NCBI GenBank assembly: GCA_013360295.1
Contig: JABWCL010000041.1
Location: forward strand, 1 to 45,420
Reading direction: 5' to 3'
Length of the DNA stretch: 45,420 nucleotides
Origin: Ignavibacteriaceae bacterium
GTDB lineage: Bacteria > Bacteroidota > Ignavibacteria > Ignavibacteriales > Ignavibacteriaceae
Under the pieces are notes generated by a model. It saw nothing but the letters and a program-made list of their open reading frames with translations, did not search any database and was not told where the DNA came from. Positions 12,066-30,617 of this stretch are shown one piece after another. The stretch's first letter is position 1, and each line of letters opens with the position of its first letter. The position numbers and the translations under genes are program-made.

Positions 12066-15000
12066 CTATTTGATGATTGTCATTTTCATAATCTTGCTGA
12101 ATGACGGGGCGCCGTCAGAGGGCTTCGCTTCCAGCTTATAAAAGTAAATACCGCTTGGAAGTTTTCCCGCGGAAAACGGCACGGTGTATCTGCTTGAAAA
12201 AGTAAAAGATGTTGAGGAATTATCAGTATGCGCGGCATTACCAAAAGGATTTGGATAATTCTGATATAACTCAAACGACAATGGAGTTTCATCGCGTTCA
12301 TTGACGGAGGTTGCCGTGGAATAGTTCATCTGAAAGTAATTAAGGCTAAATAGCCAGTTCTTTCTTTCAGAAGCTACGTCCGTATTTATCTCTATACGCA
12401 GGATCTGTGTCCCGGCGTTTAACCGCACTCCCCTGATTGGAATCGGCGCCCAGCTCTGCCAGCCGCCTGTGTTTAATACAAATCGCTTTCCGCTAACATC
12501 AATATTGTTTACAAATATTCTAAAATTACCAAATCCGGGGACAGTGGAGACGTATGGAATAATATCATAAACCGTGTCGGAAGGAACGGTGATAGTATAC
12601 TCAAGCCATTCACCCGCCACCATCCAGTATACATCATAACCCTGAGTGCTTGAGGGCTCAATGTCAACTCCTTCGTTCGGACGGTATGCCATTCCGATGT
12701 TATTTGCGTTCACATCGTGGTAAGCTATGCCTTCGCCGCCCAGATCAAAATTTTCAGCCTGAATTATACCCGGTATCATAACGGGCGAGCCTAAATACGG
12801 CGTTCCGTTACCAAGTACTTTTATTGTAACGCTGTCGTTTGAAGTTAAGTTAAGCTGATTGGTAACTGTAAGTACAGCTTTGTAAATACCAGGTACAGTA
12901 TAAATGTGCTGCGGGTCAGCTGCGGCAGCGGTTGCTCCGTCCCCGAAAGTCCAATGATATGAAAGCGGTGAATTATTCCTGTCAAAACTCCGGCTGCCGG
13001 TAAACCTTACAGTCAGCGGGGATTTGCCAGTCGTTTTGTCCGCCATCAAAATTGCAATCGGTGCGTTTATGTTCACCGAGGAAGTGTTTTGTGAACGCAT
13101 CTTCCGGGGGCCAACTCTCATTGAATATCCGTCCGAAAAAGTTACTGTCACGGAATCAGATGCCGCGTTATACGCGACATAAGTTTTCTCTCCCGCGCTG
13201 TTTTTGAAAACAGCATACGTCGGAATATTAGCCGTTACCGAAGGCTCCGGTCTACCCATTTTTTTGAGATTACCGAGCCAGTGATATGTATGTGCTTTTG
13301 TTCCTCCCTCTTCGGGAATATAAGCTGTATCGGCAAAAAAGGAAGTCAGCGCCGCGGCCGGATTAAAAAAGGACTGGTACTGCCACATAATGTCTTTCCA
13401 CGTTGGTTCGCTGCCGCTGAGTTCATTAACAATTTCCTGGTAAAGCAATTCAGCATACTCCGGACGGCGCCCGAGATACATAGAGCCGCCGGTAAAAGGA
13501 AGCATATTTATACCGTGAATAAAATCCGGATCAGCGCCAAACCAGGTTGAGTGAACTCCTTTCGCGCCCCAGACCATTCCAAGACCTTTATATGGATATG
13601 ATGCGGGAAAAACCGCATCGTCAACATCAAACCAGTATTGTTCTATCGCACTCCTTTCGGTAGCATAAAGATATATACCGAGATCGCGAATGTCATTCTG
13701 TTGGGTTATCTCGCCCCACAGGATAGTTGCAGTTGCAAAATTCATTGATTCCGAACTTGATTCCTCGTTGTTTCCGTCACCGAAATCGCCGTGCCCCGCC
13801 GCCCACGCGTGTCCCGCGTAAGGATCAAAAGAGCGGAGAAACGGGAACCTGGTATCAGAGCGGTCCCAGTTATTGCCGTCTTTAATAAGAAGATTAACCA
13901 TACCGCCCCAGTTTTCCTGTGCCGCCCACGCCGGGTCAAACTGAGCGACAATCGCTGCGGCCATAATCGCGTAGCCCGCGTGAAAATGGTGGTCGTTGAT
14001 CTGGTTATCCGCGCCGAATTCCGAAGGATAACCGGTAAGGGTTTTCCAGTTGGAATTGTAAACATAACTCTGCCTTCCTCCGGCAGTGAACCACTCCTGC
14101 AGGCGGGTTTTAATTTGTGACAGGAAATAATCGCGCGCGGTCACTGCGCCGATCTGATCGGCAATGTTAACAAGGTGCGCGAAACGCGCCATAAGTTTTC
14201 CGTTCCAGTAAGTTCCCGCGTTGTTCCCGCTATCGGGGAGTGTTTCTGATGTGACGGCATTGACCATCGCGAGCAGGTCGGTTTTATTGTAAACACCTTC
14301 ATCGGGAAGGGCGGGCAGAACACCTTCGTACGCAAGTTCCGTGCTGAACTGATTGCCGTCATAGACTTTCATTTTTCCCGCGACCGAGATGTATTCATAA
14401 GCCGTAAGCGGCGCGGTTGTGTTGAGCCACTGATGACGGTACAACGCGGTAAGGGTCTGGTTAAGGTTGCCGTTTCCGGACTCCTTTAATTCGGTGGTAT
14501 ATACAAAATCTGATAGAAGGATAGAAGCTGATTTGTCATAAGTCCAGGAGACAGCGCTTCCGGTTACGAAAGCGTAAGCGTGTTTACGGTAAAACTCAAG
14601 CGTTGCGGTTGTGTTATCCGGCAGCAGAGCGACGGAAAAATAATTCTTTCCGTTCAGTGAAGACTGAAGCGATGCTGTTCCCGTCCATACCGAACTATCA
14701 GGAGCGAAAACGCCATAATGCTTTCCTTCTACAGTCATACCAATCACACCACGCTGGTTGTACCATATAGCCGGAGTTGAATTGCTGGTTATAATCGCAT
14801 TCCCCCCAGAAATAGTGAAGAAGACAAAAGGAAGTCCGTGGCCGAATGTCGCTCTCAGCCTGCGGGTCCCGTCATACCACATCGCGGTTACAGTCCAGTC
14901 GCCGTAATCATCTGTGACGGTATTGGAAGAATTCAGTCCGGCAATTCCGGCGGTGAGTTGGTGCGAAAATGGAAAAAGATAATCCTGACCCGCGAAGACC

Positions 15001-15314
15001 GGCGTTGTGGTATAACCTATCTGCAGCCCGTTGTTCTTTGCCCGGAAGTTCATCGGGTGGGCAAACAAATTGTTTGAGTGCGGGTCTCCGTAAAAAGGAA
15101 ATATGAGACTGCTCCAGAAATCGCTGGTCTGTGCGGGTTTTTGAAACGAGGTGGAAACTTTTGGGAAAACAGGAGCCCCGGAAGAGGTTTGCGGACCAAC
15201 TGCGCCGGGCGGAAGCACTGTTCCATAACTGCCCGCGCCCACTTGCACATTCTGGGCAGAACATACTATTGATAGTGCTATTATTGTTATGCCGGCAAAA
15301 CGAACAAAATTCAT
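12066..15314 (-). CDS. GH81 endo-beta-1,3-glucanase with PKD, CBM6 and a shortened T9SS domain
   Basis: 1082 aa. The start is fixed by AGGAGT five bases upstream and a signal peptide (MNFVRFAGITIIALSIVCSA). Residues about 30-700 are a GH81 catalytic domain. DHHFHAGYAIMAAA (Asp441) and RSFDPYAGHAWAAG...DGNNEESSSE (Glu518, Glu522) are the family's acidic active-site motifs. A PKD domain follows (SYHWTFGDGA, about 745-835), then a CBM6-like module (IIQAENFD...GEWLEYTI...NYFQM, about 845-1005). The sorting domain keeps QNYPNPF and LPSGIYFYKLEA, but about 25-30 central residues, including the VYDxxGxEV strand, are missing. The enzyme should cut laminarin- or callose-type chains internally. It is the last gene of the left arm, 43 bp behind GH3. 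Confidence 0.88.
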   Translation of the reverse strand: MNFVRFAGITIIALSIVCSAQNVQVGAGSYGTVLPPGAVGPQTSSGAPVFPKVSTSFQKPAQTSDFWSSLIFPFYGDPHSNNLFAHPMNFRAKNNGLQIGYTTTPVFAGQDYLFPFSHQLTAGIAGLNSSNTVTDDYGDWTVTAMWYDGTRRLRATFGHGLPFVFFTISGGNAIITSNSTPAIWYNQRGVIGMTVEGKHYGVFAPDSSVWTGTASLQSSLNGKNYFSVALLPDNTTATLEFYRKHAYAFVTGSAVSWTYDKSASILLSDFVYTTELKESGNGNLNQTLTALYRHQWLNTTAPLTAYEYISVAGKMKVYDGNQFSTELAYEGVLPALPDEGVYNKTDLLAMVNAVTSETLPDSGNNAGTYWNGKLMARFAHLVNIADQIGAVTARDYFLSQIKTRLQEWFTAGGRQSYVYNSNWKTLTGYPSEFGADNQINDHHFHAGYAIMAAAIVAQFDPAWAAQENWGGMVNLLIKDGNNWDRSDTRFPFLRSFDPYAGHAWAAGHGDFGDGNNEESSSESMNFATATILWGEITQQNDIRDLGIYLYATERSAIEQYWFDVDDAVFPASYPYKGLGMVWGAKGVHSTWFGADPDFIHGINMLPFTGGSMYLGRRPEYAELLYQEIVNELSGSEPTWKDIMWQYQSFFNPAAALTSFFADTAYIPEEGGTKAHTYHWLGNLKKMGRPEPSVTANIPTYAVFKNSAGEKTYVAYNAASDSVTVTFSDGYSMRVGPRKMRSQNTSSVNINAPIAILMADKTTGKSPLTVRFTGSRSFDRNNSPLSYHWTFGDGATAAAADPQHIYTVPGIYKAVLTVTNQLNLTSNDSVTIKVLGNGTPYLGSPVMIPGIIQAENFDLGGEGIAYHDVNANNIGMAYRPNEGVDIEPSSTQGYDVYWMVAGEWLEYTITVPSDTVYDIIPYVSTVPGFGNFRIFVNNIDVSGKRFVLNTGGWQSWAPIPIRGVRLNAGTQILRIEINTDVASERKNWLFSLNYFQMNYSTATSVNERDETPLSFELYQNYPNPFGNAAHTDNSSTSFTFSSRYTVPFSAGKLPSGIYFYKLEAKPSDGAPSFSKIMKMTIIK

Positions 15315-15357: not shown

Positions 15358-17553
15358 TTATATTTGTATTAGCTCAAATTCAGCCCGGAGGTTGGCATCT
15401 GAATCGCCACCTATCCATAAATGGAATTTCCCGGGTTCGTATGTGTACTTCATATACTTGTTCCAGAATTTAAGGTCATTAACGGTTATTTCGAATTCAA
15501 CAACACTGCTTTTTCCGGCTTCAAGACGGATCTTCTTAAAACCTTTCAGCTCTTTTACCGGCCTTGTTATACTGCCCGCGAGATCACGGATGTATAACTG
15601 CACCGTCTCTTCCGCTTCGCGGTTCCCGGTATTGGTAACCGTTGCAGAGGCAAGGATCTTTCCTTGCGGTGTCAGTTTGTCTGAACTGAGGCGGATGTCG
15701 CTGTAATGAAATTCAGTGTATGACAATCCGAACCCAAACGGGAATAACGGCGTATAGTGAGTGTCGAGATGAAACGACGTATTCCCCACTGATACCTGGT
15801 GCGCGCGTATCGGCAGGTTATCAATATGATTAAAAGATTCCGGTGTTGCCGGGCGTCCAGTGTTTTTTTGTGAATAGTAAACAGGTATCTGACCCGTTAC
15901 TCTCGGAAACGTAACCGGCAGTTTGCCTGAAGGCGAATACTTTCCGAACAATATATCCGCGATGGCGGTACCGGACATTGTGCCGGGGTGCCACGCGTAA
16001 ACCAGCGCGTCAACTTTATCAATAATATACTCCAGTGCGAGAGGCCTGCCAGCCATTAATACAAGCACGATAGGCTTTCCCGTTTCCTTCAAAGCATTTA
16101 TCAGTTCAGCCTGGTTGCCCGGAAGACTGATATCCGAACGGCAGTGAGCCTCACCCGATAGTATTGATTCTTCGCCAAGGAATAACAATACAACATCAGA
16201 ATCATACGCCGCGGCTTTTGCCTCTTCAAAGAAATCGTACGACCTGCTTCTGGTCGTGTGCATTCCCCTGACATACTTCACGCTGAAGTTTTCTTTTCCT
16301 TCTTCCGTAATTGCGTGCAGCGCGGTTTCGCTGATATTTTCATCCCCGTCAAAAATCCAGGTGCCGAGTTGCTCATATTTATCATCAGCAAGCGGACCGA
16401 TAACGGCTACGTTTGTCAAATTGGTTTTCTTCAGCGGAAGCAAATAGTTGTTGTTCTTTAAAAGAACTAAACTTTTTCTCGCTGCTTCTTTTGCTATTTC
16501 AAGGTGTCCGTTCAGGTCGTATTCCCTGAAATAGCCAAGCCGTTCAGCATTGAAATTCAGCAGACCCATCCGCTCTTTAACGCGGAGAATGTTTTCTACC
16601 ATCTTGTCAATCGCTGCCATTGATATTTTATTCTCATCCAGCAGGGTTTTAATGTGATCTGCAAATGTACGGGATGCCATTTCCATATCCATTCCGGCAT
16701 TAATAGCTGCTTCAGCAGATTCCTTATCTCCCTCGGTTAACCCGGCTGTCTGCAGTATTCTCACGGATTCCCAGTCACTGACCACAAACCCGTTGAAGTT
16801 CCACTCGTTTCTGAGTACCTGCTTTAATAAAAATTCATTAGCTGACGCGGGTATCCCGTTGAGGTCGCTGAATGAAGTCATAACCGTTGCGGCGCCCGCT
16901 TCAATAGCGGCTTTAAACGGAGGAAGGTGAACATTCCTGAGTTCATTTTCGGGAATGTTTGTTATGTTATAGTCTTTTCCGCTTTCGCTCGCGCCGTATC
17001 CGGCAAAATGTTTCACGCACGCGGCAATACTGTCAGCGCCGGAAAGATTATCACCCTGGAATCCCTTCACCATAGCGGAGCCAAGAACGCTTGTGAGATA
17101 AGGATCCTCGCCCAATGTTTCGGCAATACGGCCCCATCTTGGGTCTCTGCAGATATCAAGCATAGGTGCGTATGTCCAGTTAACGCCTCTTGATTTTGCT
17201 TCAATGGCGGAAACGCGCGCGCATTGTTCAATAAGTTCCGGATCCCAGCTTGCCGCCTGTCCCAGCGGAATAGGGAACACTGTTCTGAAACCGTGAATAA
17301 CATCGCGCCCTATGAGCAAGGGTATTCTCAACCTGCTCTCTTCAATACAGATTCGCTGTAGTTCACGCACTGTTTCCGGATCCACTTCGTTCAGAATAGC
17401 TCCTATACGCCCCGCGCGAAGATCATCTTTAATTGAATTGATTGAATGCCCGCCCGGACTATTGATCAGCATAAGCTGCCCGATTTTTTCATCGAGCGTC
17501 ATTTCGTTGATTAATTTACCGACCGGGCTTTGCCACACGGACTGGTCTCTCAT
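15358..17553 (-). CDS. GH3 beta-glucosidase (BglX type), no signal peptide
   Basis: 731 aa. The N-terminal TIM barrel shows MTLDEKIGQL, GRDVIHGFRTVFPIPLGQAAS, RDPRWGRIAETLGEDPYL, KHFAGYG (181-187) and GFVVSDWESV, with the family nucleophile Asp260. The alpha/beta sandwich includes LFLGEE...SGEAHCR and VLVLMAGRPLALEY. A C-terminal fibronectin-III-like domain (EETVQLYIRDLAGSITRPVKELKGF) completes the BglX-like order at normal length. No signal peptide or sorting domain is seen, so it should act in the cytoplasm on imported beta-glucan oligosaccharides. It lies between the GH-A glycosidase (155 bp) and GH81 (43 bp) on the same strand. It is not the closest type to the GH3 domain at 27648-29453, which lacks the fibronectin part. 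Confidence 0.9.
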   Translation of the reverse strand: MRDQSVWQSPVGKLINEMTLDEKIGQLMLINSPGGHSINSIKDDLRAGRIGAILNEVDPETVRELQRICIEESRLRIPLLIGRDVIHGFRTVFPIPLGQAASWDPELIEQCARVSAIEAKSRGVNWTYAPMLDICRDPRWGRIAETLGEDPYLTSVLGSAMVKGFQGDNLSGADSIAACVKHFAGYGASESGKDYNITNIPENELRNVHLPPFKAAIEAGAATVMTSFSDLNGIPASANEFLLKQVLRNEWNFNGFVVSDWESVRILQTAGLTEGDKESAEAAINAGMDMEMASRTFADHIKTLLDENKISMAAIDKMVENILRVKERMGLLNFNAERLGYFREYDLNGHLEIAKEAARKSLVLLKNNNYLLPLKKTNLTNVAVIGPLADDKYEQLGTWIFDGDENISETALHAITEEGKENFSVKYVRGMHTTRSRSYDFFEEAKAAAYDSDVVLLFLGEESILSGEAHCRSDISLPGNQAELINALKETGKPIVLVLMAGRPLALEYIIDKVDALVYAWHPGTMSGTAIADILFGKYSPSGKLPVTFPRVTGQIPVYYSQKNTGRPATPESFNHIDNLPIRAHQVSVGNTSFHLDTHYTPLFPFGFGLSYTEFHYSDIRLSSDKLTPQGKILASATVTNTGNREAEETVQLYIRDLAGSITRPVKELKGFKKIRLEAGKSSVVEFEITVNDLKFWNKYMKYTYEPGKFHLWIGGDSDANLRAEFELIQI

Positions 17554-17708: not shown

Positions 17709-20700
17709 TTAAATGCTGAAGTGGAGGTAAGTCCTGATTTCCCACTCATTTCCCTCCGGTTGTCCGGGGGAATTAAGGCTGGGAACAAGGTTACCTGCTT
17801 CGTTAAGCATCATAACCGGCTGATAACGCGAAGAGTATTTGTCGAGTGATCTCCAGGTCCCGCGTAATCCTATCCGTGTTTGCGGAAGTTCAAACCATTG
17901 GGGCGTGCCAAGGTTAGCTGATACGTCCGCCATTAACTGAAGCGGATACGTCAGGTTAAAGTCTTTGTGATAATCATACGGGCCCCAGTCATTAATCTTG
18001 ACCGACGCGGTTAATCTTATCGAGTTCATAATAAATCTGAAGTAACCGCCGTAACGGTGAATGAGCCTGCTGTCGCTGCCGTTTGGTTCTCCGGTACCGC
18101 CGTAAATATTAGCGATCATTCCGACGTTCTTGCCAAGCTTTGAAATAATCCTGGCGTAAGTTTCCCATACGTCTCTTGCCATCGGCGCGCCGGGGAAAGC
18201 AAAAAGCGTTCTTCCGTCAGCGAGTATGCCTATTGCCGCGTCCTGTGTCGTTGGTTGATGCCTGAAGATAAATCCGGCGCTGAACGCGTAAAGAGCGTCT
18301 TCTCTAATATCGCTGTCCCACGAATAGAGCCAGGTCGCGGGGGTCGGATCAAAGTTAATGAGCAGTTCACCAGCGATAGTTTCCCTGTTTGCCCTGACGG
18401 CGAACGGGTCTGAAAGTATGTTGCGCGGGCGTCCGGGAGCGGGAACATCACCGGGAATAGGACCTTCAATTGGCTTCTGATAGAGGAAATTAGGGGCGAT
18501 TTGCCACGAATCAATTGTATATGCAAAACCACTTAGGAAGTTATACTGGTTGCCGGTTCCCGCGTCTTTAAGCCTCCATCCGGTGAATGTCAGCGCGGGA
18601 TTCACGCCGCCATCCGCTACCAGGCCCATTGCGCCTCCCTGCGCGTACCAGTTGAAGGGGCCGTTTGAGAAGGTCACTTTAAGTTTTCCGCCGAATGCAT
18701 CGGAAGCTTTGATCTTATCCTGGTAAACAGTGTAATTTCCTGATGAGCCGGTTACTAACTGGAAAGTGTTTCCGACCTTTGTATTTCCGCCCCAGATACC
18801 GCCCGCCTCAACTCCAAACACGCCGTAGGTATACTTAACGTGAAGGGTTGCTTTGCGTGTCGGGGGAAGCGGAACCGCGAAAGAACTGACCGCGCCGCTT
18901 TGTTTGGCTAGATCCTCCTGGTAAATACCGGTCATATCAAAAGCGCCGAGCTGTCTCCTGTATTTAACAAGTACCGCCGGGTTAGCGCCCCACCATAGTT
19001 CCGGACCAAATGCTATCTTCAATCCGTCGAAAACCTGTTTGCCCGCAACTTCAAAACCGAGTGGTGCCGCGGCGTTATAAATGTCGTGATTTTCACCGTA
19101 GTTTGCTTCGGGATATAATCCGAAGAAGTCTCCTTCATATCCCCAGTGAAAATGCCCGGTGCGATAGAAGCCGTCGAGTTTGAAAACAGGACTTTCCCAG
19201 GTGATGCTTGCTTTGTAAATCTTTAATCTCTCATTACCGTAGAGTGTGGTTGTTCCCTCATTTGTCTTGACGGTTTTCTGTGTTCCCCTGTTCTCGTAAA
19301 ATATTTCATCTATAGGATTAAGCGGCACGTTGCCGAGCATATTGATTTCAACCTGCCCGCGAACATTCTCGGAAGGTTTCGCTTCGATCTGTGCGTAGAA
19401 TGATTGTAAGTGATCGAATCCTAAAAATGCCGGACGCGATGAACTTCCAGGAACAGGATCATCCGGAGTTGTAATTTTCTCGCCGCCGGTATTGAATGTT
19501 TCGAATTCCATCCTCAGTCCGCTGAGGCGTACTTTGCCGGTTCTCTCTGCCTGGAGCGCAGCCTTGTCTCCGCGAGCGGTAATAAAATCCGAGAAAGGAT
19601 CTATGTTGCCGAAATGGTTTTCTATAATGGAGAGGTTCATACCGGGTTTATATGGGTTGAGTGTGTTTACTCTCTTAAGTGTATAGTATGCGGCGCGCGG
19701 GTAAAGTTCGTAAAGTCCGTTTTGATCTGTCGGACCTTTAGCGCAGATACCAAACCATTCTTCATTCATATTATTAGAGCCTTCAACAAGGTCTTCTTTG
19801 TATCCGCCGTTAGCCCACGAAGCAGTTATATCGTGAACATCGAGATTAAACTCCTGACCCTGTTTCCACCAGCCATCGCTGAACTGGAATGTCATACCGC
19901 CAATGGAGATTCCGGTTTTGCCGGCGCCCGCGGCGTGTTCGTAAATATCTTTCCAGTTAGCGTGGAGGTATTTTGCCTGCATAAGCTGGTCTTCCCTGTT
20001 CTCTTTCGCGTTGAATGCGTCTGAACCAAACTCGGTAAACAAAATGGGTACGTTTAGTTTTTCTTTAACCTTATCAAACGCGTCGGTAAAAGTATAACCG
20101 CGGTACATATTGGTTCCGAAGATATCAAGGTTCTTTATTTTATCAGCTATAATATCGAGGAATAAAAGATCACCGTTAGCAATAGCAACCGGGTGTTTAT
20201 TATCTTTCTGTTTGATTAACGCGATGCCATCGCTGAAGAGTGAGTACATATGCTGGGCGCGGACGGATTCGAGGGTTTCACCGACGGGGATATCTTCAGT
20301 CGCGGCGCCGCCCCAGAAGAGGCCGTAGTTGTTTTCATTGCCAAGCAGCCAGAGAAGCAAACCGGGTACATCGCGGAATTCTTCAACCATCGCGGTTACC
20401 TCGCCAAGTATTACATCGCGTGTCGCGGGATCAGCATAATCGGTATGTGGTATATACGCGCCGTTAAGGTTAACGCCGTATCTTCCGAAGGAGTGGTTTA
20501 GGATGGTATATATACCGTATCGTTCGTATATATATTGTACCCATTTGGGTTGAACGCCGGTGTATTGGCGTATGACGTTAACGCCCATATTCCGGAGAAG
20601 CGACATCTCACGGTCAAGCGCGGCGCGGATTACATCATCCGGCTGTGTCCACAAACTGTAAGTATAGTTTGTACCGACAGGGAAAAAGTCCCAGTTCATT

Positions 20701-20882
20701 CCTTTAACAAAGAAATCTTTTCCGTCCACCTGAAGGCGCATTCCGGAAGAGTCCTTTTTTATTGTTACCTTCGCGGACTGTGCGACGGAATCCATACCGC
20801 CCGCCAGAAGAAAAAATAAAATCACGAATAATATTTTTGTTCCGCGTGAATAAAAAGCCGATCGATGTTTATTAAGAGCCAT
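17709..20882 (-). CDS. Clan GH-A glycosidase fused to a large beta-rich (possibly outer-membrane barrel) domain
   Basis: 1057 aa from the ATG at 20882, chosen because GAGG lies five bases upstream and the signal peptide (ILFVILFFLLAGGMDSVAQ) then sits near the N-terminus; the frame opens 57 bases earlier. Residues about 40-420 form a TIM barrel: DGKDFFVKGMNWDFFP, LRNMGVNVIRQYTG, LLWLLGNENN (acid/base Glu183) and PILFTEFGSDAF (nucleophile Glu284). This is the GH2/GH5-like clan A layout. Residues about 450-1057 are rich in alternating aromatic strands with Gly/Asn turns and end EIRTYLHFSI, like an outer-membrane barrel. The gene leads the left arm behind an operator-bound promoter. The substrate is inferred to be beta-1,3-glucan from its neighbours. 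Confidence 0.7.
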   Translation of the reverse strand: MALNKHRSAFYSRGTKILFVILFFLLAGGMDSVAQSAKVTIKKDSSGMRLQVDGKDFFVKGMNWDFFPVGTNYTYSLWTQPDDVIRAALDREMSLLRNMGVNVIRQYTGVQPKWVQYIYERYGIYTILNHSFGRYGVNLNGAYIPHTDYADPATRDVILGEVTAMVEEFRDVPGLLLWLLGNENNYGLFWGGAATEDIPVGETLESVRAQHMYSLFSDGIALIKQKDNKHPVAIANGDLLFLDIIADKIKNLDIFGTNMYRGYTFTDAFDKVKEKLNVPILFTEFGSDAFNAKENREDQLMQAKYLHANWKDIYEHAAGAGKTGISIGGMTFQFSDGWWKQGQEFNLDVHDITASWANGGYKEDLVEGSNNMNEEWFGICAKGPTDQNGLYELYPRAAYYTLKRVNTLNPYKPGMNLSIIENHFGNIDPFSDFITARGDKAALQAERTGKVRLSGLRMEFETFNTGGEKITTPDDPVPGSSSRPAFLGFDHLQSFYAQIEAKPSENVRGQVEINMLGNVPLNPIDEIFYENRGTQKTVKTNEGTTTLYGNERLKIYKASITWESPVFKLDGFYRTGHFHWGYEGDFFGLYPEANYGENHDIYNAAAPLGFEVAGKQVFDGLKIAFGPELWWGANPAVLVKYRRQLGAFDMTGIYQEDLAKQSGAVSSFAVPLPPTRKATLHVKYTYGVFGVEAGGIWGGNTKVGNTFQLVTGSSGNYTVYQDKIKASDAFGGKLKVTFSNGPFNWYAQGGAMGLVADGGVNPALTFTGWRLKDAGTGNQYNFLSGFAYTIDSWQIAPNFLYQKPIEGPIPGDVPAPGRPRNILSDPFAVRANRETIAGELLINFDPTPATWLYSWDSDIREDALYAFSAGFIFRHQPTTQDAAIGILADGRTLFAFPGAPMARDVWETYARIISKLGKNVGMIANIYGGTGEPNGSDSRLIHRYGGYFRFIMNSIRLTASVKINDWGPYDYHKDFNLTYPLQLMADVSANLGTPQWFELPQTRIGLRGTWRSLDKYSSRYQPVMMLNEAGNLVPSLNSPGQPEGNEWEIRTYLHFSI

Positions 20883-21134
20883 CATAGCCTCAAAAAAATA
20901 GTTGATAATTTTTTTTATTGTTCTCTCGCTCAAATTCATCCCCCGACGAACCCGGTACGGTAATTTCCGGAACCGAATCAGCGCTTAACTATATATAAGG
21001 TTTGCACGCCGGCGGCTTCCGGGGTTAATCAACGATCCCATATTAATCTGATTAACTTCTCTGTCCGTTTCTTAACTGCTGAAAAAGTGAATTTTTACCC
21101 GGGAGAGGAGCTAAAAACAGGGGAAATAAAATCA

Positions 21135-21413: not shown

Positions 21414-23873
21414 ATGTTTTCTAAAAGTTACTCCCTCCTCGCCGTCTTAATTATTTCGGCGGCAGTATTAACCTGGAACGGTTGTCAGAGAGATGCTGAC
21501 ATACTTGAACCGGCTGCTTATCCCACGGATGCTGAAGTTTTTACTGATGGCTTCGGCCCTGGTGTAGAGTACCAGGCGTTTGGTGATGCAAAGCTCGATG
21601 CTCTGCAGATAGACTCGGAAGTGAAGTATGCCGGTAACTACGGTTTGAAAATATCCGTGCCATCCGAAGGATACGCTTTCGGAACATACGCGGGCGGAAC
21701 ATTTGTTTCAGGGTCCGGCAGAGACCTTCGCGGATATAACGCGGTTACCTTCTGGGCGAAGGCAAGTATACCGGCTCAAATCAACGTCGCGGGAATCGGG
21801 AACGACAACACAGCCAACGCCAAATTTACCGCTCAGCGCACCAACCTTCCAATCAACACCACCTGGCAAAAATATATAATCCCCATACCTGCTTCCGGAA
21901 AACTTACCAAAGAAAAAGGTTTGTTTTTCTTTGCAATTGCAAATGTCAGCGGTACCGGGTTTGAAGTGTGGATGGATGAAATAAAGTATGAGAACCTTGG
22001 CACGCTCGCTCATCCCCGCTTATCAATATTATCCAGATCGGTTGATCTCATCGCGGGCGATACCGTAAAAGTTAACGACCCTGTTGTTACGTTTGACAAC
22101 ATCGGCACCGCTGTCACGGTACAGGCTTCCGCAAGTTACCTTACCTTAATATCGTCAGATTCAAATGTCGCTATCGGAGATAACTTCGGAACCGTAAGGG
22201 CGGTCGGTGCGGGGACAGCAGTCATTACCGCAAAACTCGGAAGTGCGACGGCTACCGGCACCATCACCGTAAAATCTACTGCGGCGGCAGGACCGGCAAC
22301 GGCGGCGCCAACACCGACAATAGCAGCAGACAAAGTATTATCAATTTTCAGCGATTCATATACTAACCTCCCTGTGGACACCTGGGCGGCAACCTGGGGA
22401 ACAGGCCGGGTAACTGACACCTCCATTACCGGGAACAATGTTAAAATCTATTCCAATCTCGGTTTTGCGGCAATAGACTTCAGCAATCACCAGATAGATG
22501 CTTCAACAATGACACATATCTATATGAATATGTGGACAATCTATCCGACCACTTCACCGGCGGCATTTAAAATTAAACTTGTAGATTTCGGCCCCGATGG
22601 GATTCAGGGAACAATGGATGACATTGAGCAGGAAGTATCACTCACAGCGACAACCACCCCTGCCATAGCAACAGGATCGTGGGTAACGCTTGACATTTCT
22701 CTTTCTGAATTTGCACTCACATCTCAGGGAAACCTCGCACAGATTATTATATCTGGCGATTTAAAAACAGTATGGTTAGATAACATATTCTTTTATAAAG
22801 GGACGGGCGGCCCGGTTACTGTTCCTACCACTCCGCCACCGGCACCAACAGCCTCTGCTGCAAATGTTGTTTCGCTTCTCAGTAACTATTATACAAACGT
22901 TCCGGTTGAAACCTGGGCCGCAAGCTGGTTATACAGTACCGCTGTGGTAAGAGACAGGGTTGTAGGCGGCGAACTGCTGAAGTTATACACAGACCTCAAC
23001 TTTGCGGGAATACTGCTGGCAAGCCCGATAGATGTATCAACGATGACCCGTTTCCATATGGATATATGGACTCCGAACCCGACAGCATTGCCAAAATCAT
23101 TTAAAATATTGCTGATTGACTTTGGAGCAAACGGTGTTTCAGGCGGCGGGGATGATTCCCAGCACGAACTTTCTTTTACGGCGGCAACTACCCCGGGACT
23201 CGTTACGGGCTCGTGGGTAAGTATTGACGTTCCGCTATCCAATTTTACCGGACTAACCGGCAAGTCAAACCTCGCGCAGATGGTTATTTCTGGCGACCTT
23301 AAGACGGTTTGGGTCGGAAATGTCTACTTCTACAAAGGAGGCGGCACAACTCCGGGCGGCCCGACAACTCCGGCGCCGACACCGACGCTGCCGGCTTCAA
23401 ACGTGATTTCACTTTTCAGCGATGCATATACAAACGTTCCGGTTGACACATGGTCGGCTTCCTGGGATCAGGCGGACTTAACGGATACAACTATCGCGGG
23501 CAATAATGTTAAACTGTACCGGAATCTTGTTTATGCCGGCGTTGAATGCCTGACAAACACGATAAATGCCACGAGTATGACACACTTCCATATGGATATC
23601 TGGACACCAAACGCGACATCGGGCGGAGTAGTCTTTAAGATAAAACTGGTTGATTTCGGGGCGAATGGAAGTTTCGGCGGAGGAGATGATGTTGAGCACG
23701 AGTTGACATTCAGCGCCACAACGTCGCCCGCATTAACCACGGGTTCCTGGGTAAGTTTTGATATTCCGCTTTCCAGTTTTACGAGTCTTACAACGAAAGC
23801 TCATATGGCACAGTTTATTATATCAGGCGGACTAAATACTGTCTGGGTAGACAATATTTATTTCCACAATTAA
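21414..23873 (+). CDS. Lipoprotein with three tandem glycan-binding-like domains
   Basis: 819 aa. The ATG follows ACCGGAG at good spacing. The signal peptide ends in VLTWNGC, a lipobox-like site (Cys24). Residues about 40-195 form a carbohydrate-binding-like jelly roll (GYNAVTFWAKAS...FEVWMDEIKYEN). Residues about 200-285 are a bacterial Ig-like (BIG_2-type) domain. Three repeats of about 165 residues begin near 300, 476 and 654. Each has VxSxxSxxYTNxPVxTWxAxW, STMTxxxMxxW, FKIxLxDFGxxG, TGSWVxxDxxLS and LxTVWxxNxxFxx. Pro/Thr-rich linkers separate them. There is no catalytic motif and no T9SS domain. As first gene of the right arm it probably serves as a surface glycan-capture protein. The laminarin/beta-glucan ligand is inferred from context. 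Confidence 0.75.
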   Translation: MFSKSYSLLAVLIISAAVLTWNGCQRDADILEPAAYPTDAEVFTDGFGPGVEYQAFGDAKLDALQIDSEVKYAGNYGLKISVPSEGYAFGTYAGGTFVSGSGRDLRGYNAVTFWAKASIPAQINVAGIGNDNTANAKFTAQRTNLPINTTWQKYIIPIPASGKLTKEKGLFFFAIANVSGTGFEVWMDEIKYENLGTLAHPRLSILSRSVDLIAGDTVKVNDPVVTFDNIGTAVTVQASASYLTLISSDSNVAIGDNFGTVRAVGAGTAVITAKLGSATATGTITVKSTAAAGPATAAPTPTIAADKVLSIFSDSYTNLPVDTWAATWGTGRVTDTSITGNNVKIYSNLGFAAIDFSNHQIDASTMTHIYMNMWTIYPTTSPAAFKIKLVDFGPDGIQGTMDDIEQEVSLTATTTPAIATGSWVTLDISLSEFALTSQGNLAQIIISGDLKTVWLDNIFFYKGTGGPVTVPTTPPPAPTASAANVVSLLSNYYTNVPVETWAASWLYSTAVVRDRVVGGELLKLYTDLNFAGILLASPIDVSTMTRFHMDIWTPNPTALPKSFKILLIDFGANGVSGGGDDSQHELSFTAATTPGLVTGSWVSIDVPLSNFTGLTGKSNLAQMVISGDLKTVWVGNVYFYKGGGTTPGGPTTPAPTPTLPASNVISLFSDAYTNVPVDTWSASWDQADLTDTTIAGNNVKLYRNLVYAGVECLTNTINATSMTHFHMDIWTPNATSGGVVFKIKLVDFGANGSFGGGDDVEHELTFSATTSPALTTGSWVSFDIPLSSFTSLTTKAHMAQFIISGGLNTVWVDNIYFHN

Positions 23874-23887
23874 AACAATAAATATAA

Positions 23888-25147
23888 ATGAACGTGATCA
23901 ACGGTATCAGCAGAGTGAACGGGAAACAGTCGGGAGAGAATGATCTCCGCGGCTTCGGGAGCATCTCCGACAGAATACTAAGATTAATATGGAACGAGCA
24001 CCGGATCTCAAGAATAGAGATCGCGAAACGCCTGGGGCTGGCAAGATCAACCGTAACAGAAATAGTTAAAGAAATAATTGACAGCGGTTTTGTAAATGAA
24101 GTAGGCACCGGCAAGTCGAAAGGCGGCAGGCGCCCGATTGTGCTTGAATTCCAGGACGATACGAAGTGTATACTTGGGATAGATATAGGGCAAAATCACG
24201 TTTCTGTCGCGCTAACCAACCTGCGCGGAAAACTGATTCACTGGGTTGAAAGAAGTCATCCGGTACGGCATGACCTCGAAGGTACACTCAACCTGGTAAT
24301 TGAGTTGAGCGATATATGTCTTACTCGCGCAAAGATAAGTCAACAGTTAATGGGCATTGGAGTATCCCTCCCAAGTCCGATAGATCCTGTAAATCCCGGG
24401 GTAATACCGGAAGTAGTCCTGCCGGAATGGGGCGGAAGAAACAAACTGGAAAGAATTGCTCAGAAGTATAATGTGCCTGTATATATAGATAACGACGCGA
24501 ATCTCGGAGCGATTGCCGAACACAGGTGGGGCGCGGGGCGTGGCGTAGATGATATGATCTATATTAAATCATCCACAGGAATAGGCGCGGGATATATACT
24601 TGACGGGCAAATATACAGAGGCGCAACGGGATCCGCGGGTGAAATCGGCCATCTGCCGATTGATATCTACGGAAAACGATGTGTCTGCGGACTTCGGGGC
24701 TGCCTGGTGACTTATGTCGGGCAGCACGCTCTTGAGGCGAGAGCCGAACAATTATTCAATGATTACCCTGAAAGCACGCTTAAAGGAAAAAAGCCCTCGA
24801 TTATTGATATAGAAGATGCCGCGCTTTCGGGCGACACTCTCGCGCTCAGAGTAGTAAGAGAAGCCGCGGACTATCTCGGGACAGCCATCGCGGGCTGGCT
24901 TAATGTAATGAATCCGCGCATGGTGATTTTCGGCGGCGATCTCGCGAGGACGGGTGAACTGCTTCTAGAACCGATAAGAGAAAAGTTCAGGCATTGCACG
25001 ATAGTAAATTCCGTGGCTGACGTGAAAATAACGACAGGCGAACTGGGCGCGCAGGCCGTCGCGATTGGCGCGGCTACCCTGGCTATTGAAGAAACATTTG
25101 CCGAAACGGATATCCTGAAACAGAAGACTCATCCCGCGGCTCTCTGA
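23888..25147 (+). CDS. ROK-family transcriptional regulator
   Basis: 419 aa, starting 14 bp after the lipoprotein stop. A winged helix (residues about 25-70, ISRIEIAKRLGLARSTVTEIVKEII) precedes a ROK sugar-kinase-fold domain. That domain shows GIDIGQNHVSVAL, DNDANLGAIAEHRWG, GIGAGYILDGQ and the ROK zinc site GEIGHLPI...CVCGLRGC (His255, Cys265, Cys267, Cys272). This is the NagC/XylR/Mlc-like architecture. Such proteins sense a sugar or sugar phosphate and release DNA. Its place inside the right arm and the twin operators over both arm promoters make it the likely, auto-regulated, master repressor. No Shine-Dalgarno is obvious; translation may be coupled to the upstream gene. Confidence 0.92.
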   Translation: MNVINGISRVNGKQSGENDLRGFGSISDRILRLIWNEHRISRIEIAKRLGLARSTVTEIVKEIIDSGFVNEVGTGKSKGGRRPIVLEFQDDTKCILGIDIGQNHVSVALTNLRGKLIHWVERSHPVRHDLEGTLNLVIELSDICLTRAKISQQLMGIGVSLPSPIDPVNPGVIPEVVLPEWGGRNKLERIAQKYNVPVYIDNDANLGAIAEHRWGAGRGVDDMIYIKSSTGIGAGYILDGQIYRGATGSAGEIGHLPIDIYGKRCVCGLRGCLVTYVGQHALEARAEQLFNDYPESTLKGKKPSIIDIEDAALSGDTLALRVVREAADYLGTAIAGWLNVMNPRMVIFGGDLARTGELLLEPIREKFRHCTIVNSVADVKITTGELGAQAVAIGAATLAIEETFAETDILKQKTHPAAL

Positions 25148-25212
25148 TAAAGATTATGAAAACCTTCATTCTACATACAAATTTTTTTCAAACAACGAAT
25201 AGGAACGGGATT

Positions 25213-26040
25213 ATGAAATCCGGAAAACTGATTCTTGTCTTAGTGTTTAACGTGTTAATATTACCGGCAATTCTGGTGCTAAACGGATGCGAAAGCCCGG
25301 CGGAAAGCGAAGAAAGATCCTGGAAACTGGTATGGCAGGATGAATTTAACGGCGCCGCGGGATCACTTCCCGATACGCTGACGTGGAATTTTGATGTCGG
25401 TACAGGCTGGGGAAACGCGCAGCTTGAATATGACACAAAACGTCCTGAGAACGTATCGCTTAACGGCGAGGGATTCCTGGAGATCACAGCGAGGAAAGAA
25501 CCATACCTCGGATCAAACTACACCTCCGGCCGTATCACCACCAAGAATAACGTGGAGTTTACCTACGGAAAAATTGAAGCGCGGATGAAACTCCCCTGGG
25601 GACAGGGTATGTGGCCCGCGTTCTGGCTTCTCGGCGCGGATGTAGATACAAAAGGATGGCCTGCCTGCGGTGAGATAGATATTATGGAAAATCGCGGACA
25701 AATGCCGGCAAGAGTACACGGAACGGTTCACGGCCCCGGCTATTCCGGTTCCGCCGGTAAATCCAAGCAGTTTGATCTTGTGAACGACAGGTTTGATACC
25801 GGGTTTCATACATTCGCGGTGGAATGGTCGGAAAGAGAGATCAAATTTCTTGTTAACGGAATTTTATATCACACAGTAAAACCCGAAGACCTGCCGGGTG
25901 AATGGGTGTTTAATAAAAACTTTTTTATTATACTCAATCTGGCTGTAGGAGGCAACTACGTCGGTCCTGTCGGCACGAACACAGTTTTCCCCCAGTCGCT
26001 GGTTGTTGATTATGTAAGAGTCTACCGGGAGGAAAAATAA
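25213..26040 (+). CDS. GH16 endo-beta-1,3-glucanase (laminarinase), lipoprotein
   Basis: 275 aa from the ATG at 25213; the frame opens 57 bases earlier, but only this start follows AGGA and leads directly into a signal peptide. LVLNGCESP is a good lipobox (Cys26). The catalytic signature GEIDIMEN gives nucleophile Glu154, Asp156 and acid/base Glu159, the beta-bulge form typical of laminarinases. LVWQDEFNG, TSGRITTKN, GKIEARMKLPWGQGMWPAFWLL and the closing VVDYVRVYREEK are all family hallmarks. The enzyme is a compact single domain without a binding module. As a lipoprotein it probably sits on the outer membrane and makes laminari-oligosaccharides. It follows the ROK gene in the same operon. 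Confidence 0.93.
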   Translation: MKSGKLILVLVFNVLILPAILVLNGCESPAESEERSWKLVWQDEFNGAAGSLPDTLTWNFDVGTGWGNAQLEYDTKRPENVSLNGEGFLEITARKEPYLGSNYTSGRITTKNNVEFTYGKIEARMKLPWGQGMWPAFWLLGADVDTKGWPACGEIDIMENRGQMPARVHGTVHGPGYSGSAGKSKQFDLVNDRFDTGFHTFAVEWSEREIKFLVNGILYHTVKPEDLPGEWVFNKNFFIILNLAVGGNYVGPVGTNTVFPQSLVVDYVRVYREEK

Positions 26041-26129: not shown

Positions 26130-29100
26130 ATGAGCGACAGCAGGCACTACACGACAGCACCCGAAGACCGCATTCCCTTTTCTCATAAACTGATTTATGG
26201 AGTAGGAGCTTTTATAAACAACCTTCTCGCGGCCGCAAGCGGCGGGATGATGATAGTGCTTAACCTGGGACTGGGAATGAATCCGGCGCTCGTCGGACTG
26301 CTCGGCGCGCTCCCAAGAATTACGGACGCCTTCACCGATCCGGTGATGGGCTATATCTCAGATCATACAAGGTCAAAGTGGGGACGCCGCCGCCCGTATA
26401 TATTTGCAGGTGCAATTTTATCAGGTTTAATTTTCGCGCTTCTCTGGCAGCTTCCCGAAGGAAAAAGCGAAACATTTTATTTTGTTTACTTCCTTCTCGG
26501 ATCAATTCTTTTCTACGCGGCTTATACGGTTTTTGCCACACCGTGGGTGGCGCTCGGTTACGAACTAACCCCCGATTACCATGAACGCACCAGGCTTATG
26601 GGCGTGCAGAATTTCTTCGGACAGATCGCTTATGTGGTCTCCCCCTGGTTCCTCTGGATAATGACCTACAAAGGATTTTTTGATAACCAGGTAAGCGGTG
26701 CGGCAGGGCTAGCGATCATTATAGCAGTCTTCACAATCGCGGTGGGAATAATCCCGGCAATCTTTCTTAAAGAGAGATTTAAGGAAATAGCCATCAGTGA
26801 AACGGAAAAAAGTGAAAAAGCCGCGGCGAAATCAAAATCATTTTTAAGCGGAATTACGGAGTTCTTCAGCAGTTTTTCTACAGTATTAAAATCAAAGAAT
26901 TTTCTGCTCCTGTGTGCGGCTACCTTCCTTGTATTCAACGGCTTTATGCTCATATCTTCATTCCAGTTTTATGTAATAATATATTATGTATTCAGCGGCG
27001 ACCAGATGGCAGGCGCGGAATATGCGGGCTATGCCGGAACAATTGGTGCCATATCAACGTTTGCGGTAGTCGCGCTGGTTACCTGGATGTCTACTAAGAT
27101 CGGTAAGAGGAAAGCATTTTTTGTATCAACCGGCGTATCAATGATTGGCTACGCTCTTAAGTGGATTTGCTATAACCCGAGTTATCCCTGGCTTCTGCTT
27201 CTTCCCGCGCCACTGCTATCCTTCAGCCTTGGCGGCTTGTTTACGCTTATGCCATCTATGATTGCAGACGTGGTGGATACAGACGAGATTAAAACCAACG
27301 AAAGACGTGAAGGGATGTTCGGGTCTATCTTCTGGTTTATGGTTAAACTCGGAATGGCGGCAGCGCTTGCAGGCGGCGGATACATTCTCAACGCGACAGG
27401 GTTTGACGTTGCGCTTGGCGGATCTCAGTCCGATACGACGATTTTCCTCCTCCGGTTGTTTGACGCCGGGTTCCCGGTGATAACCTCAGCGCTGGCGATC
27501 TGGGCCATATATGTCTACCCGATTACCGAAGAAAGGGCATACCAGACAAGGAAAGAACTAGAACGCCGCCGCGGACCGGCTTCCGTTGCCACCGGCGCTC
27601 CTGCTTTGCAATTACAAACATCACAATTAAAGATAAACGGTATTATCATGGAAAACAACATTGACACAAAAGTAAATGAACTGATGTCGAAAATGACACT
27701 GGATCAGAAGATCGGACAGATGACCCAGACCGAGAGGCTTTCGGTTACTCCGGCTGAAATTAAAGAGTACCATATCGGCTCAGTGCTCAGCGGCGGAGGG
27801 TCGCTTCCCGGTGATAATAACCCGATTGACTGGGTGAAAATGAATGACGCTTACTGGGCGGCATCAATGGAAGAAGATGAAAACCATCTTGCTATCCCCA
27901 TCCTTTATGGCGTAGATGCAATTCACGGAAACAATAACGTGAAAGGCGCCACGGTATTTCCGCACAATATAGGTCTTGGTGCGGCTAACGATCCCGAACT
28001 GATTCAGAAAGTTGCCCGGATTACCGCGCGCGAAATCCTTGCCACGGGAGTTGAGTGGACCTTCGCGCCTACACTTGCCGTTGTCAGAAATGAAAAATGG
28101 GGCAGGACTTACGAAAGCTATTCTGAAGATCCGGCTATTGTAAAGAGCTACGCCTACAATTTTGTAAGCGCAATGCAGGGTGATTATGGTCGGGACAGTG
28201 TTATTGCCTGCGCGAAGCACTGGGTCGGAGACGGCGGTACAAACGGTATTGACCAGGGAGAGACTACTCTTCCTTACAGCGAACTTGAGAGGTTGCATAT
28301 AGCTCCATATTACGATGCAATTGCCGCCGGTGTGCTTACCGTAATGGCATCATATAACAGCTGGAACGGGAATAAATGCCACGGGCACGAGTACCTGCTT
28401 AAGGAAGTACTGAAGAAGAAGATGGGATTCCAGGGATTTGTTATTTCAGACTGGAACGGAATAGATCAGCTTTCGAAGGATTACTCTGAGGCAATAGCGC
28501 TATCGGTAAATGCCGGAGTGGATATGTTTATGGTACCCGAGAAATGGAAAGAATTTATTCAACTGTTGAAAAAACACGTTGAGAACGGTACTGTATCAAT
28601 GGAAAGAATAGATGACGCTGTGAGAAGAATACTTCGTGTAAAGTTTATTTACGGACTGTTTGAAAAACAGCGGCCGGCGGAAAGATACTGGTCTGATCAT
28701 AAATCCTTCGGTTCGGCTGAACACCGTGAAGTCGCGAGGGAAGCAGTAAGAAAATCACTTGTTTTACTGAAAAATGACAATAATATTCTCCCGGTTAATA
28801 AATCGGCAAATATACTTGTAGCCGGTAAGAACGCGCATAACCGCGGGCATCAGTGCGGTGGTTTCACGGTGCTTTGGCAGGGTGCTACCGATAACGATAC
28901 GATTGTCGGTGGGACTTCAATTTGGGAAGGCATTAAAAACGTTGCTCCGAATGCTGTTCTTAATCCGGACGGCAGCGAAGCTGAAGCCGGAAAATATGAT
29001 GTGGCTATAGTTGTTATCGGCGAGAAACCATACGCAGAAGGATTGGGAGATGTACGTCCCGACGGTAACATCGAAGCGGGTTCGCAATTTATTCGTCCCG

Positions 29101-29453
29101 ACCTGCAGTTAAAACCTTATTCAAGCACCCTTGAACTTTCGAAGATGCATCCCGAGGATATTGAAACGATAAACAGGATTACTTCAAAAGGAATACCGGT
29201 GGTGGCAATTCTGATCTCGGGAAGGCCGCTTGTAGTCAATCGTGAACTCGCGGAGTCAAAAGCATTTGTAGCCGCATGGCTACCGGGGTCTGAAGGAGCC
29301 GGAGTATCTGATGTGATTTTCGGCGATTATGATTTCCAGGGTAAACTTAGTTTCTCCTGGCCGAAGAAAGAAGACGAGCTGTGGAACAAGGGTGATGTGA
29401 ATTATAGCCCGCTGTTCCCATACGGTTTTGGACTCAGATACACTGCTGTGTAA
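26130..29453 (+). CDS. Fusion: GPH-family sugar symporter + GH3 beta-glucosidase
   Basis: 1107 aa in one open frame. Residues about 15-475 are a 12-helix glycoside-pentoside-hexuronide:cation symporter: TDPVMGYISDHTRSKWGRRR near 70, TPWVALGYELTPDYHERT near 145, and ADVVDTDEIKTNERREGMFG near 380. A linker of about 30 residues leads to Met507 and a complete GH3 of about 600 aa: MTLDQKIGQMTQ, WGRTYESYSEDP, KHWVGDGGTNG, and GFVISDWNG with nucleophile Asp774. It ends YSPLFPYGFGLRYTAV without a fibronectin part. Both symporter ends should be cytoplasmic, so the GH3 would cleave imported beta-glucosides at the exit of the carrier. An internal start at 27648 could also yield free GH3; the AT-rich linker resembles a former intergenic stretch. 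GH17 follows after 9 bp. Confidence 0.88.
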   Translation: MSDSRHYTTAPEDRIPFSHKLIYGVGAFINNLLAAASGGMMIVLNLGLGMNPALVGLLGALPRITDAFTDPVMGYISDHTRSKWGRRRPYIFAGAILSGLIFALLWQLPEGKSETFYFVYFLLGSILFYAAYTVFATPWVALGYELTPDYHERTRLMGVQNFFGQIAYVVSPWFLWIMTYKGFFDNQVSGAAGLAIIIAVFTIAVGIIPAIFLKERFKEIAISETEKSEKAAAKSKSFLSGITEFFSSFSTVLKSKNFLLLCAATFLVFNGFMLISSFQFYVIIYYVFSGDQMAGAEYAGYAGTIGAISTFAVVALVTWMSTKIGKRKAFFVSTGVSMIGYALKWICYNPSYPWLLLLPAPLLSFSLGGLFTLMPSMIADVVDTDEIKTNERREGMFGSIFWFMVKLGMAAALAGGGYILNATGFDVALGGSQSDTTIFLLRLFDAGFPVITSALAIWAIYVYPITEERAYQTRKELERRRGPASVATGAPALQLQTSQLKINGIIMENNIDTKVNELMSKMTLDQKIGQMTQTERLSVTPAEIKEYHIGSVLSGGGSLPGDNNPIDWVKMNDAYWAASMEEDENHLAIPILYGVDAIHGNNNVKGATVFPHNIGLGAANDPELIQKVARITAREILATGVEWTFAPTLAVVRNEKWGRTYESYSEDPAIVKSYAYNFVSAMQGDYGRDSVIACAKHWVGDGGTNGIDQGETTLPYSELERLHIAPYYDAIAAGVLTVMASYNSWNGNKCHGHEYLLKEVLKKKMGFQGFVISDWNGIDQLSKDYSEAIALSVNAGVDMFMVPEKWKEFIQLLKKHVENGTVSMERIDDAVRRILRVKFIYGLFEKQRPAERYWSDHKSFGSAEHREVAREAVRKSLVLLKNDNNILPVNKSANILVAGKNAHNRGHQCGGFTVLWQGATDNDTIVGGTSIWEGIKNVAPNAVLNPDGSEAEAGKYDVAIVVIGEKPYAEGLGDVRPDGNIEAGSQFIRPDLQLKPYSSTLELSKMHPEDIETINRITSKGIPVVAILISGRPLVVNRELAESKAFVAAWLPGSEGAGVSDVIFGDYDFQGKLSFSWPKKEDELWNKGDVNYSPLFPYGFGLRYTAV

Positions 29454-29462
29454 CGGTATAAA

Positions 29463-30617
29463 ATGATTAAAAAAAATATAATATTACCCGGGATCATACC
29501 CGCGAATCAGATACTTGCAATTGCGGTTTTATTCTTTTTATGTACAGGGATGGTCGGTACGGTGTTTGGAAAAAACGGTGATAAGGAGAAGATGGATAAG
29601 ATCAGGAAAATACTTGAGGAGAATAATATCCCAGATGCGCCGGCTCAGTGGGTTACACGAAAGCCTCTCTTTCGCGATGGCGCTGACTTTAACCCGATGG
29701 CAATTGCCTACGGATGTTACCGGGAGGGACAGGCTCCGGGCGTGAAAGGGCCCTCGGTAAGCGAGATCAAAGAAGACCTTGCTATCATTGAAAAGTACTG
29801 GACGCTGATAAGGGTATACGGCGCGGACGACGATACAGAAAGAATATTAAGCGTTATTCAAAAAGGCGGACATAATATAAAAGTTGTTTTGGGGATATGG
29901 CTTGAAAATGAAGAAGGGAAACCGGAAAAAAAGGCAGCGAACATTAAACAGGTGCTGCGCGGAATAGAACAAGCGGACAAGTACGAAAATATAATCGAGT
30001 CAGTCTGTGTGGGAAATGAGACTATGGTTAGCTGGTCTTATCACAGAATGCAGCCAGAACACTTAATTAAATATTTACGCGTAGTGCGGAACTATGTTAA
30101 ACAGCCTGTTACCACCGCGGATGATTACAGTTACTGGAATCTTCCGGAAAGCAAAAAGATAGCCGCCGAGCTTGATTTTATTATAACTCACATTCACCCG
30201 CTCTGGAACGGTATTCAGCTGGAAGAATCAGTTAACTGGCTTGATAAAGTATATTATGAACAGCTGGTGACAAATCATCCTGGGAAAGAAATAGTGATAG
30301 GTGAAACCGGATGGTCAACCGATTATGACGCTACCAAGACCGGGCCGGGAGAACAGGGGGCGCTGATTAAAGGTGTGGTCAATGAAGAAGCTCAAAAAGA
30401 GTTTATGAAAATGATTTATAAATGGGTGGAGGATAAAAAGGTGGTTACATATCTCTTTGAAGCTTTTGACGAACCGTGGAAGGGCGGCGGCGATAAAACC
30501 GGTCCGCGCGAAGTTGAGAAACACTGGGGCATATTTGGCGAGGACAGGAAGCCCAAAATGGCTTTCAGAGAACTGGGCGAGACATTCAGGATCAAAAAAG
30601 AAAATAAGAAACCGTAG
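29463..30617 (+). CDS. GH17-type beta-1,3-glucanase, exported
   Basis: 384 aa. An N-terminal hydrophobic segment (ILAIAVLFFLCTGMVGTVFG, residues 17-36) is a signal peptide or anchor. The barrel shows IAYGCYREGQAPGV, TLIRVYGADD, VVLGIWLENE, ESVCVGNET (acid/base Glu186) and IVIGETGWST (nucleophile Glu281), with YLFEAFDEPWK before the end. This is the GH17 order of clan GH-A, as in fungal and bacterial 1,3-beta-glucanases and glucanosyltransferases. The start lies 9 nt after the symporter-GH3 stop, so the two are surely co-transcribed. It probably trims or remodels short glucans in the periplasm. Without a T9SS domain or lipobox, periplasmic placement is favoured. Confidence 0.87.
   Translation: MIKKNIILPGIIPANQILAIAVLFFLCTGMVGTVFGKNGDKEKMDKIRKILEENNIPDAPAQWVTRKPLFRDGADFNPMAIAYGCYREGQAPGVKGPSVSEIKEDLAIIEKYWTLIRVYGADDDTERILSVIQKGGHNIKVVLGIWLENEEGKPEKKAANIKQVLRGIEQADKYENIIESVCVGNETMVSWSYHRMQPEHLIKYLRVVRNYVKQPVTTADDYSYWNLPESKKIAAELDFIITHIHPLWNGIQLEESVNWLDKVYYEQLVTNHPGKEIVIGETGWSTDYDATKTGPGEQGALIKGVVNEEAQKEFMKMIYKWVEDKKVVTYLFEAFDEPWKGGGDKTGPREVEKHWGIFGEDRKPKMAFRELGETFRIKKENKKP

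Follow-up and report, generated by a model that had tools for sequence, protein, structure and literature searches.

A symporter and a glycoside hydrolase in one reading frame

We analysed a stretch of 45,420 nucleotides from an Ignavibacteriaceae bacterium (contig JABWCL010000041.1; the whole stretch is called the window), in which a GPH-type symporter and a GH3 glycoside hydrolase are encoded by a single open reading frame (ORF) at 26130..29453 of the forward strand. The ORF listing of the window gave an ATG start and a product of 1107 amino acids, and Pfam detected MFS_2 at residues 44-467 (228 bits), Glyco_hydro_3 at residues 523-837 (278 bits) and Glyco_hydro_3_C at residues 877-1104 (123 bits) in the same chain. 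The single uninterrupted GPH-GH3 frame of 1107 codons, reported in a preliminary description of the window, was thus borne out. Sequence comparison with other genomes confirmed that the gene is a real but rare natural fusion, in which a full GPH/MFS_2 symporter is joined to a full GH3 enzyme through about 25 linker residues. The coordinates of all features are collected in Table 1.

The MFS_2 match exceeded its cutoff of 27 and covered positions 24-427 of the 427 in the profile, and the symporter half also matched MelB and MFSD2A. We counted 12 hydropathy peaks in this half; the even loops carry 33 Lys/Arg residues and the odd loops 2. Hydropathy and charge therefore predict 12 transmembrane segments with both ends in the cytoplasm, the topology known for the GPH family from MelB. 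Since the C-terminus of the symporter would lie inside, the GH3 half is placed in the cytoplasm, and the cytoplasmic enzyme of the preliminary description holds as a prediction. D66 (27/27 covering rows) and D70 (28/28) aligned with D55 and D59 of MelB, which we take to be cation-site residues, and T133, also of the cation site, and K406 were invariant in the covering rows of the alignment; the roles of these aligned residues and of the lysine are assumed from MelB. The fusion thus has in common with MelB-like GPH symporters the MFS_2 fold family and the aligned, conserved cation-site aspartates and lysine, but carries a GH3 enzyme in addition.

In the enzyme half, PF00933 and PF01915 both scored above their cutoffs, and the closest proteins by sequence were the exo-1,3/1,4-beta-glucanase ExoP of Pseudoalteromonas sp. 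BB1 (E 4.8e-165) and barley ExoI (E 1.6e-153). The best 50 of 1055 Foldseek matches were all GH3 proteins, headed by ExoP at 46% identity; matches to the symporter half were absent among these 50. D774 and E970 were present in 30/30 aligned GH3 rows, and the catalytic residues aligned with those of ExoP and ExoI; we take Asp774 to be the nucleophile from the GH3 literature, and Glu970 to be the acid/base residue from barley ExoI. No NCBIfam GH3 equivalog reached its cutoff with the enzyme half. This half is predicted to be a complete GH3 enzyme of the ExoP/barley ExoI type with its catalytic residues kept. ExoP and ExoI were solved as proteins without a transporter, and the fusion, for its part, does not have the extra C-terminal part of ExoP. 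An AlphaFold model of the fusion protein (mean pLDDT 86.6) had pLDDT below 50 at residues 483-495, and as modelled the protein is two confident domains on a flexible, disordered tether.

Table 1 Positions of the fused gene, its parts and the neighbouring genes in the window
Feature	Position	Strand	Basis or remark
GPH-GH3 fusion gene	26130..29453	+	1107 codons and stop in one ORF; Pfam domains in order; five fused homologues
GPH-type cation symporter domain, residues 1-480	26130..27569	+	MFS_2, 228 bits; 12 hydropathy peaks; positive-inside charge; MelB and MFSD2A matches
Interdomain linker, residues 481-506	27570..27647	+	pLDDT <50 at 483-495; partly predicted disordered
Met507	27648..27650	+	Met at or within one residue of the equivalent place in 6/6 fused proteins
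GH3 N-terminal catalytic barrel domain, residues 523-837	27696..28640	+	PF00933, 278 bits
Asp774, catalytic nucleophile (assumed) in SDW motif	28449..28451	+	D in 30/30 aligned GH3 rows; aligned with ExoP SDW
GH3 C-terminal domain, residues 877-1104	28758..29441	+	PF01915, 123 bits
Glu970, probable acid/base residue	29037..29039	+	E in 30/30 aligned GH3 rows; aligned with ExoP GEEPYAE motif
GH81 C-terminal domain protein with PKD and CBM6 domains	12066-15314	-	Further beta-1,3-glucan enzyme beside the cassette
BglX-type GH3	15358-17553	-	Window locus
GH2_C/GH72-like glucanase	17709..20939	-	Divergent neighbour, kept in cassette; Pfam; 63-67% homologues in L031, L032, L034, L035
Repeated glycan-binding-like protein, putative	21414..23873	+	Weak sub-cutoff match to surface glycan-binding domain
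ROK-family regulator	23888..25147	+	PF00480
GH16 endo-beta-glucanase	25156..26040	+	PF00722
GH17-like beta-1,3-glucanase	29463..30617	+	PF00332, 35.6 bits against cutoff 28.2, partial match

Recurrence of the fusion and the junction between its halves

The same domain order, for which the preliminary description had called for a search, recurred in other genomes. A scan over named bacterial and archaeal genomes yielded 80 loci, and ORF analysis of all of them found both domains in one ORF in five besides the window: L031 (bacterium MAG50), L032 (candidate division GN15), L033 (Bacteroidetes; also G157), L034 (Ignavibacteria; also G097) and L035 (Ignavibacteriales). These homologues are full-length, have no internal stops and are 69-72% identical to the window protein (L035, 72%), and their assemblies are Ignavibacteria-type and Zixibacteria-group. 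When the 97 nearest genomes were searched at the protein level, the one full-length fused match besides the window's own, open and without a stop, was in G036 at 72% identity and lies on the same contig as L035; the fusion is thus present in at least 2 of the 97, including the window's own genome. Wider searches, in partly overlapping sets, applied a strict E cutoff and scored only a handful of candidates in each genome, so that their counts are lower bounds: the fusion was found in 3/391 genomes of the class, 1/296 of the phylum (the window's own), 2/132 of the phylum of L032 (those of L031 and L032) and 0/198 of the phylum of L075, an unfused Rhodothermales relative. In L074 (Ignavibacteria BM516) the fused frame holds as far as the junction, where it meets a run of N; this locus was excluded from the fused total. 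The protein search gave no close match to the fusion in G001, a 98% complete genome of the same genus, where the best ROK matches were merely 28-32% identical, and the cassette around the fusion is therefore patchy in its distribution.

These independent assemblies were used in place of sequencing reads to judge whether the gene could be an artefact, that is, a missed stop, a frameshift or a chimeric assembly. The existence of unfused relatives would be consistent with such an error, but the same fusion in five further assemblies at 69-72% identity rules it out, as do indels in the linker that are whole codons among all six fused proteins, flanking genes that are the same across the fused loci, and the synonymous-only change in one linker pair described next. 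A stop codon near 27600 hidden by a sequencing error, the concern of the preliminary description, is made unlikely by stop-free homologues with whole-codon indels; nor are the relatives confined to separate genes, since unfused ones exist but five other assemblies carry the fusion. At the family level we regard an artefact as already refuted by these sequences, and for the window itself it is extremely improbable.

The linker offered a test of translation in the two closest fused genes, L031 and L032, whose products differ at 105 of 1109 residues. Over linker codons 485-507 we counted 8 synonymous changes and no non-synonymous one, an outcome with a chance of 2.5e-5 if selection were absent. 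Stretches of 27 codons as free of amino-acid change make up about 6% of those along the gene, and the other two frames contain stops and mostly non-synonymous change. The pattern argues that in this pair the linker is translated as part of one protein, and we infer the same for the linker of the window.

Met507 begins at 27648, immediately after an AT-rich segment (27595-27647, about 64% A+T, counted by eye); both details agree with the preliminary description, which had also proposed a separate GH3 product starting there. A full fusion accompanied by a GH3-only form, arising by initiation at Met507 or by proteolytic cleavage of the linker, would be consistent with the methionine at or adjoining this place in all six fused proteins, with the predicted disorder of the linker, and with Shine-Dalgarno pairing of -6.4 to -6.5 kcal/mol at the equivalent methionine in L031, L032 and L034. 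Against it, pairing at this place is weak in L033 (-3.0), in L035 (-0.3) and in the window, where the value of -3.0 ranks 11th of 28 internal ATGs, compared with -5.6 at the true start of the window gene and, across the six fused genes, -5.6 to -9.5 at theirs. The test discriminates poorly, because the start codons assigned to three neighbours in the window, ROK, GH16 and GH17, pair at only 2.1, -1.7 and -3.0. A separate product therefore gains no positive support in the window, and we consider two products unlikely. On the simplest reading, Met507 is probably left over from the time when GH3 was a gene of its own and started there.

Unfused relatives, history and the surrounding cassette

Among unfused relatives, the two genes occurred as an overlapping tandem, as convergent neighbours or as separate genes, or the GPH gene occurred without a close GH3. 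In the tandem relatives the GPH stop runs into the GH3 start: the overlap is 1-4 bases in Latescibacterota (L047, L079), according to which start codon is taken, and 8 bases in the Rhodothermales contig L075 (coverage 2.3). GH3 precedes GPH in the Halieaceae-type genomes L040, L048 and L110, the two are convergent neighbours in 18 Gemmatimonadota rows, and L072, L076, L083 and L125 keep a ROK-GH16-GPH operon, while the sequence examined around it contains no close GH3. The side-by-side pairs of Latescibacterota, Rhodothermales, Gemmatimonadota and Halieaceae resemble the fusion at 56-70% identity for GH3 and 53-73% for GPH, and differ from it in being two genes in overlapping, convergent or reversed order.

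A simple hydropathy test found no strongly hydrophobic leader in 44/44 close unfused GH3 rows (three of these are truncated at the N-terminus), and a leader in 23/24 distant Ignavibacteria-type GH3 rows. From the latter came the idea that an originally secreted GH3 had become intracellular through the fusion, and we rejected it because the close unfused enzymes are leaderless. So the GH3 enzyme would already have been cytoplasmic before the fusion, which tethered it. Long GH3 frames in relatives (about 930-985 amino acids) were also considered as transporter fusions and rejected, with no GPH match in the loci examined; the two that were scanned carry CBM6 and type IX secretion tails. These two, L024:1303-4218 and L021:1393-4248, are distant Ignavibacteria-type GH3s with a hydrophobic leader and appear to be secreted versions of the same enzyme type.

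In a 70-row GH3 tree the fused rows formed one clade (support 98/81; 97% of 200 bootstrap trees). Two results stand against so simple a history. The six fused rows required four changes, rather than forming one clade, in a 65-row GPH tree, and the unfused L075 fell inside the fused GH3 clade (support 91/96) once the partial rows L074, L075 and L102 were added. A single fused GPH clade was not rejected (AU p 0.228 with L074, 0.218 without). The sequences fit either two fusion events or a single one that was followed by splitting or replacement. Because unfused relatives show overlapping GPH-GH3 pairs and their GH3s are leaderless, such tandem genes are the likely raw material, and the fusion probably arose when a pair of this kind lost its stop and frame break.

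The cassette of the window runs from a glycan-binding-like protein through the ROK regulator, GH16 and GPH-GH3 to GH17. ROK-GH16 lies directly upstream of the fusion in 4/5 other fused loci (the fifth contig begins at the fusion), and GH17 directly downstream in 3/5. The shared gene order of the window-type and Zixibacteria fusions suggests transfer of the whole cassette between phyla as one unit. The gene neighbourhood points to use of beta-1,3-glucan, laminarin-like, as judged from enzyme families. Two further neighbours were observed. The divergent 17709-20939 gene encodes 1076 amino acids; the N-terminal half of its product is GH2_C/GH72-like, the long C-terminal half gave no Pfam match, and homologues at 54-67% occur in many of the cassettes. 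The 21414-23873 product is an 819-amino-acid repeated protein with no Pfam match at E 0.001 and weak sub-cutoff matches only; homologues at 43-61% occur in most cassettes examined, and it is perhaps an undescribed beta-1,3-glucan-binding repeat.

Proposed function and its alternatives

We consider it likely that the gene encodes one membrane protein, whose GPH half imports beta-glucosides with a cation and whose tethered cytoplasmic GH3 half splits them to glucose. This proposal is built on features of the sequences: a frame that is intact and recurs, two domains that are each complete, conservation at the catalytic and cation sites, the translated linker of one genome pair, and the cassette. 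GH16, GH17 and GH81 enzymes would release short beta-1,3-gluco-oligosaccharides outside the cell. The N-terminal half would import short beta-glucosides with a cation, and the gene content of the cassette makes beta-1,3-gluco-oligosaccharides of about laminaribiose size the most likely substrate. The C-terminal half, hung on the cytoplasmic end by the loose linker, would split the imported sugar to glucose, and tethering would give a fixed 1:1 stoichiometry with a hydrolase at the carrier exit. The substrate, the direction of transport, the cytoplasmic side and this stoichiometry at the exit are what we infer.

Several observations weigh against this proposal. The NCBIfam GPH model TIGR00792 was covered over 1-437 of 437 at a score of 179.8, below its cutoff of 231.35. 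In the symporter half N31, A136 and N161 replace Asp19, Asp124 and Arg149 of MelB, presumably its melibiose-binding residues; the transported sugar is therefore not readable from MelB, and with the cation-site residues invariant this half looks like a working cation symporter for a sugar other than melibiose. The model (pTM 0.60) does not fix the placement of one domain against the other, and pairwise identity of the linker among the six fused proteins is 8-27%, except for L031/L032 at 100%, so that no specific docking between the halves is implied. Unfused pairs, or GPH without a close GH3, suffice for many relatives, and it is sequence and a structural model that speak for the mechanism.

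The fusion may fix only co-expression and 1:1 stoichiometry, or anchor the enzyme, with no kinetic gain over a free cytoplasmic GH3, and the stop codon may have been lost with almost no effect on fitness. The common tandem, convergent and distant layouts in the same cassette and the free drift of the linker between distant members favour this explanation, to which we give nearly even chances. Against it, six genomes have kept the frame open despite differing at about 30% of residues, and the L031/L032 linker is under purifying selection. Hydrolysis would in any case lower the inside sugar concentration with or without a tether. A covalent transport metabolon is a more tentative possibility: the tethered GH3 would take oligosaccharides as they leave the GPH half, empty the cytoplasmic site and stop backflow, so that import would exceed that with free GH3 at the same level, and the carrier may in turn respond to the enzyme, much as LacS does to its IIA domain.

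LacS of Streptococcus thermophilus is a GPH carrier that, like the fusion, bears and tolerates a soluble domain at its C-terminus, facing the cytoplasm (PMC10703360). In contrast to the fusion, the appended domain of LacS is a PTS-type regulator, IIA, not a hydrolase, and the beta-galactosidase is a separate protein. Its action reportedly raises transport, according to the title of one paper. By analogy, the GH3 half could mainly regulate the carrier, sensing substrate or product, as the regulatory C-terminal cytoplasmic domain of LacS would suggest. We regard this as quite improbable, since the retention of all catalytic residues argues for an active enzyme; Pfam gave no IIA-Glc match in the fusion protein, whose C-terminal half is GH3. 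An engineered parallel is the artificial transport metabolon of yeast, which holds a sugar-converting enzyme at a sugar carrier; it is an engineered scaffold with xylose isomerase on Gal2, unlike a natural covalent fusion (Thomik 2017; PMC6349770).

Transporter-enzyme fusions are a known kind of protein. For the GPH-GH3 pairing itself, of which the preliminary description knew no described case, none was found in the literature as judged by titles and the openings of abstracts, a weak absence given that most subscription papers lay outside the search. Channelling by an enzyme at a transporter exit has often been proposed and has been engineered in yeast, and a natural chain that joins a sugar carrier to its own hydrolase is little described. 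As the same cassette occurs in nature in fused, overlapping and split form, the value of covalent coupling could be tested by swapping these forms in one host. The strong functional link between this GPH clade and the use of beta-1,3-glucan would also offer a guess at the substrate of many unassigned symporters.

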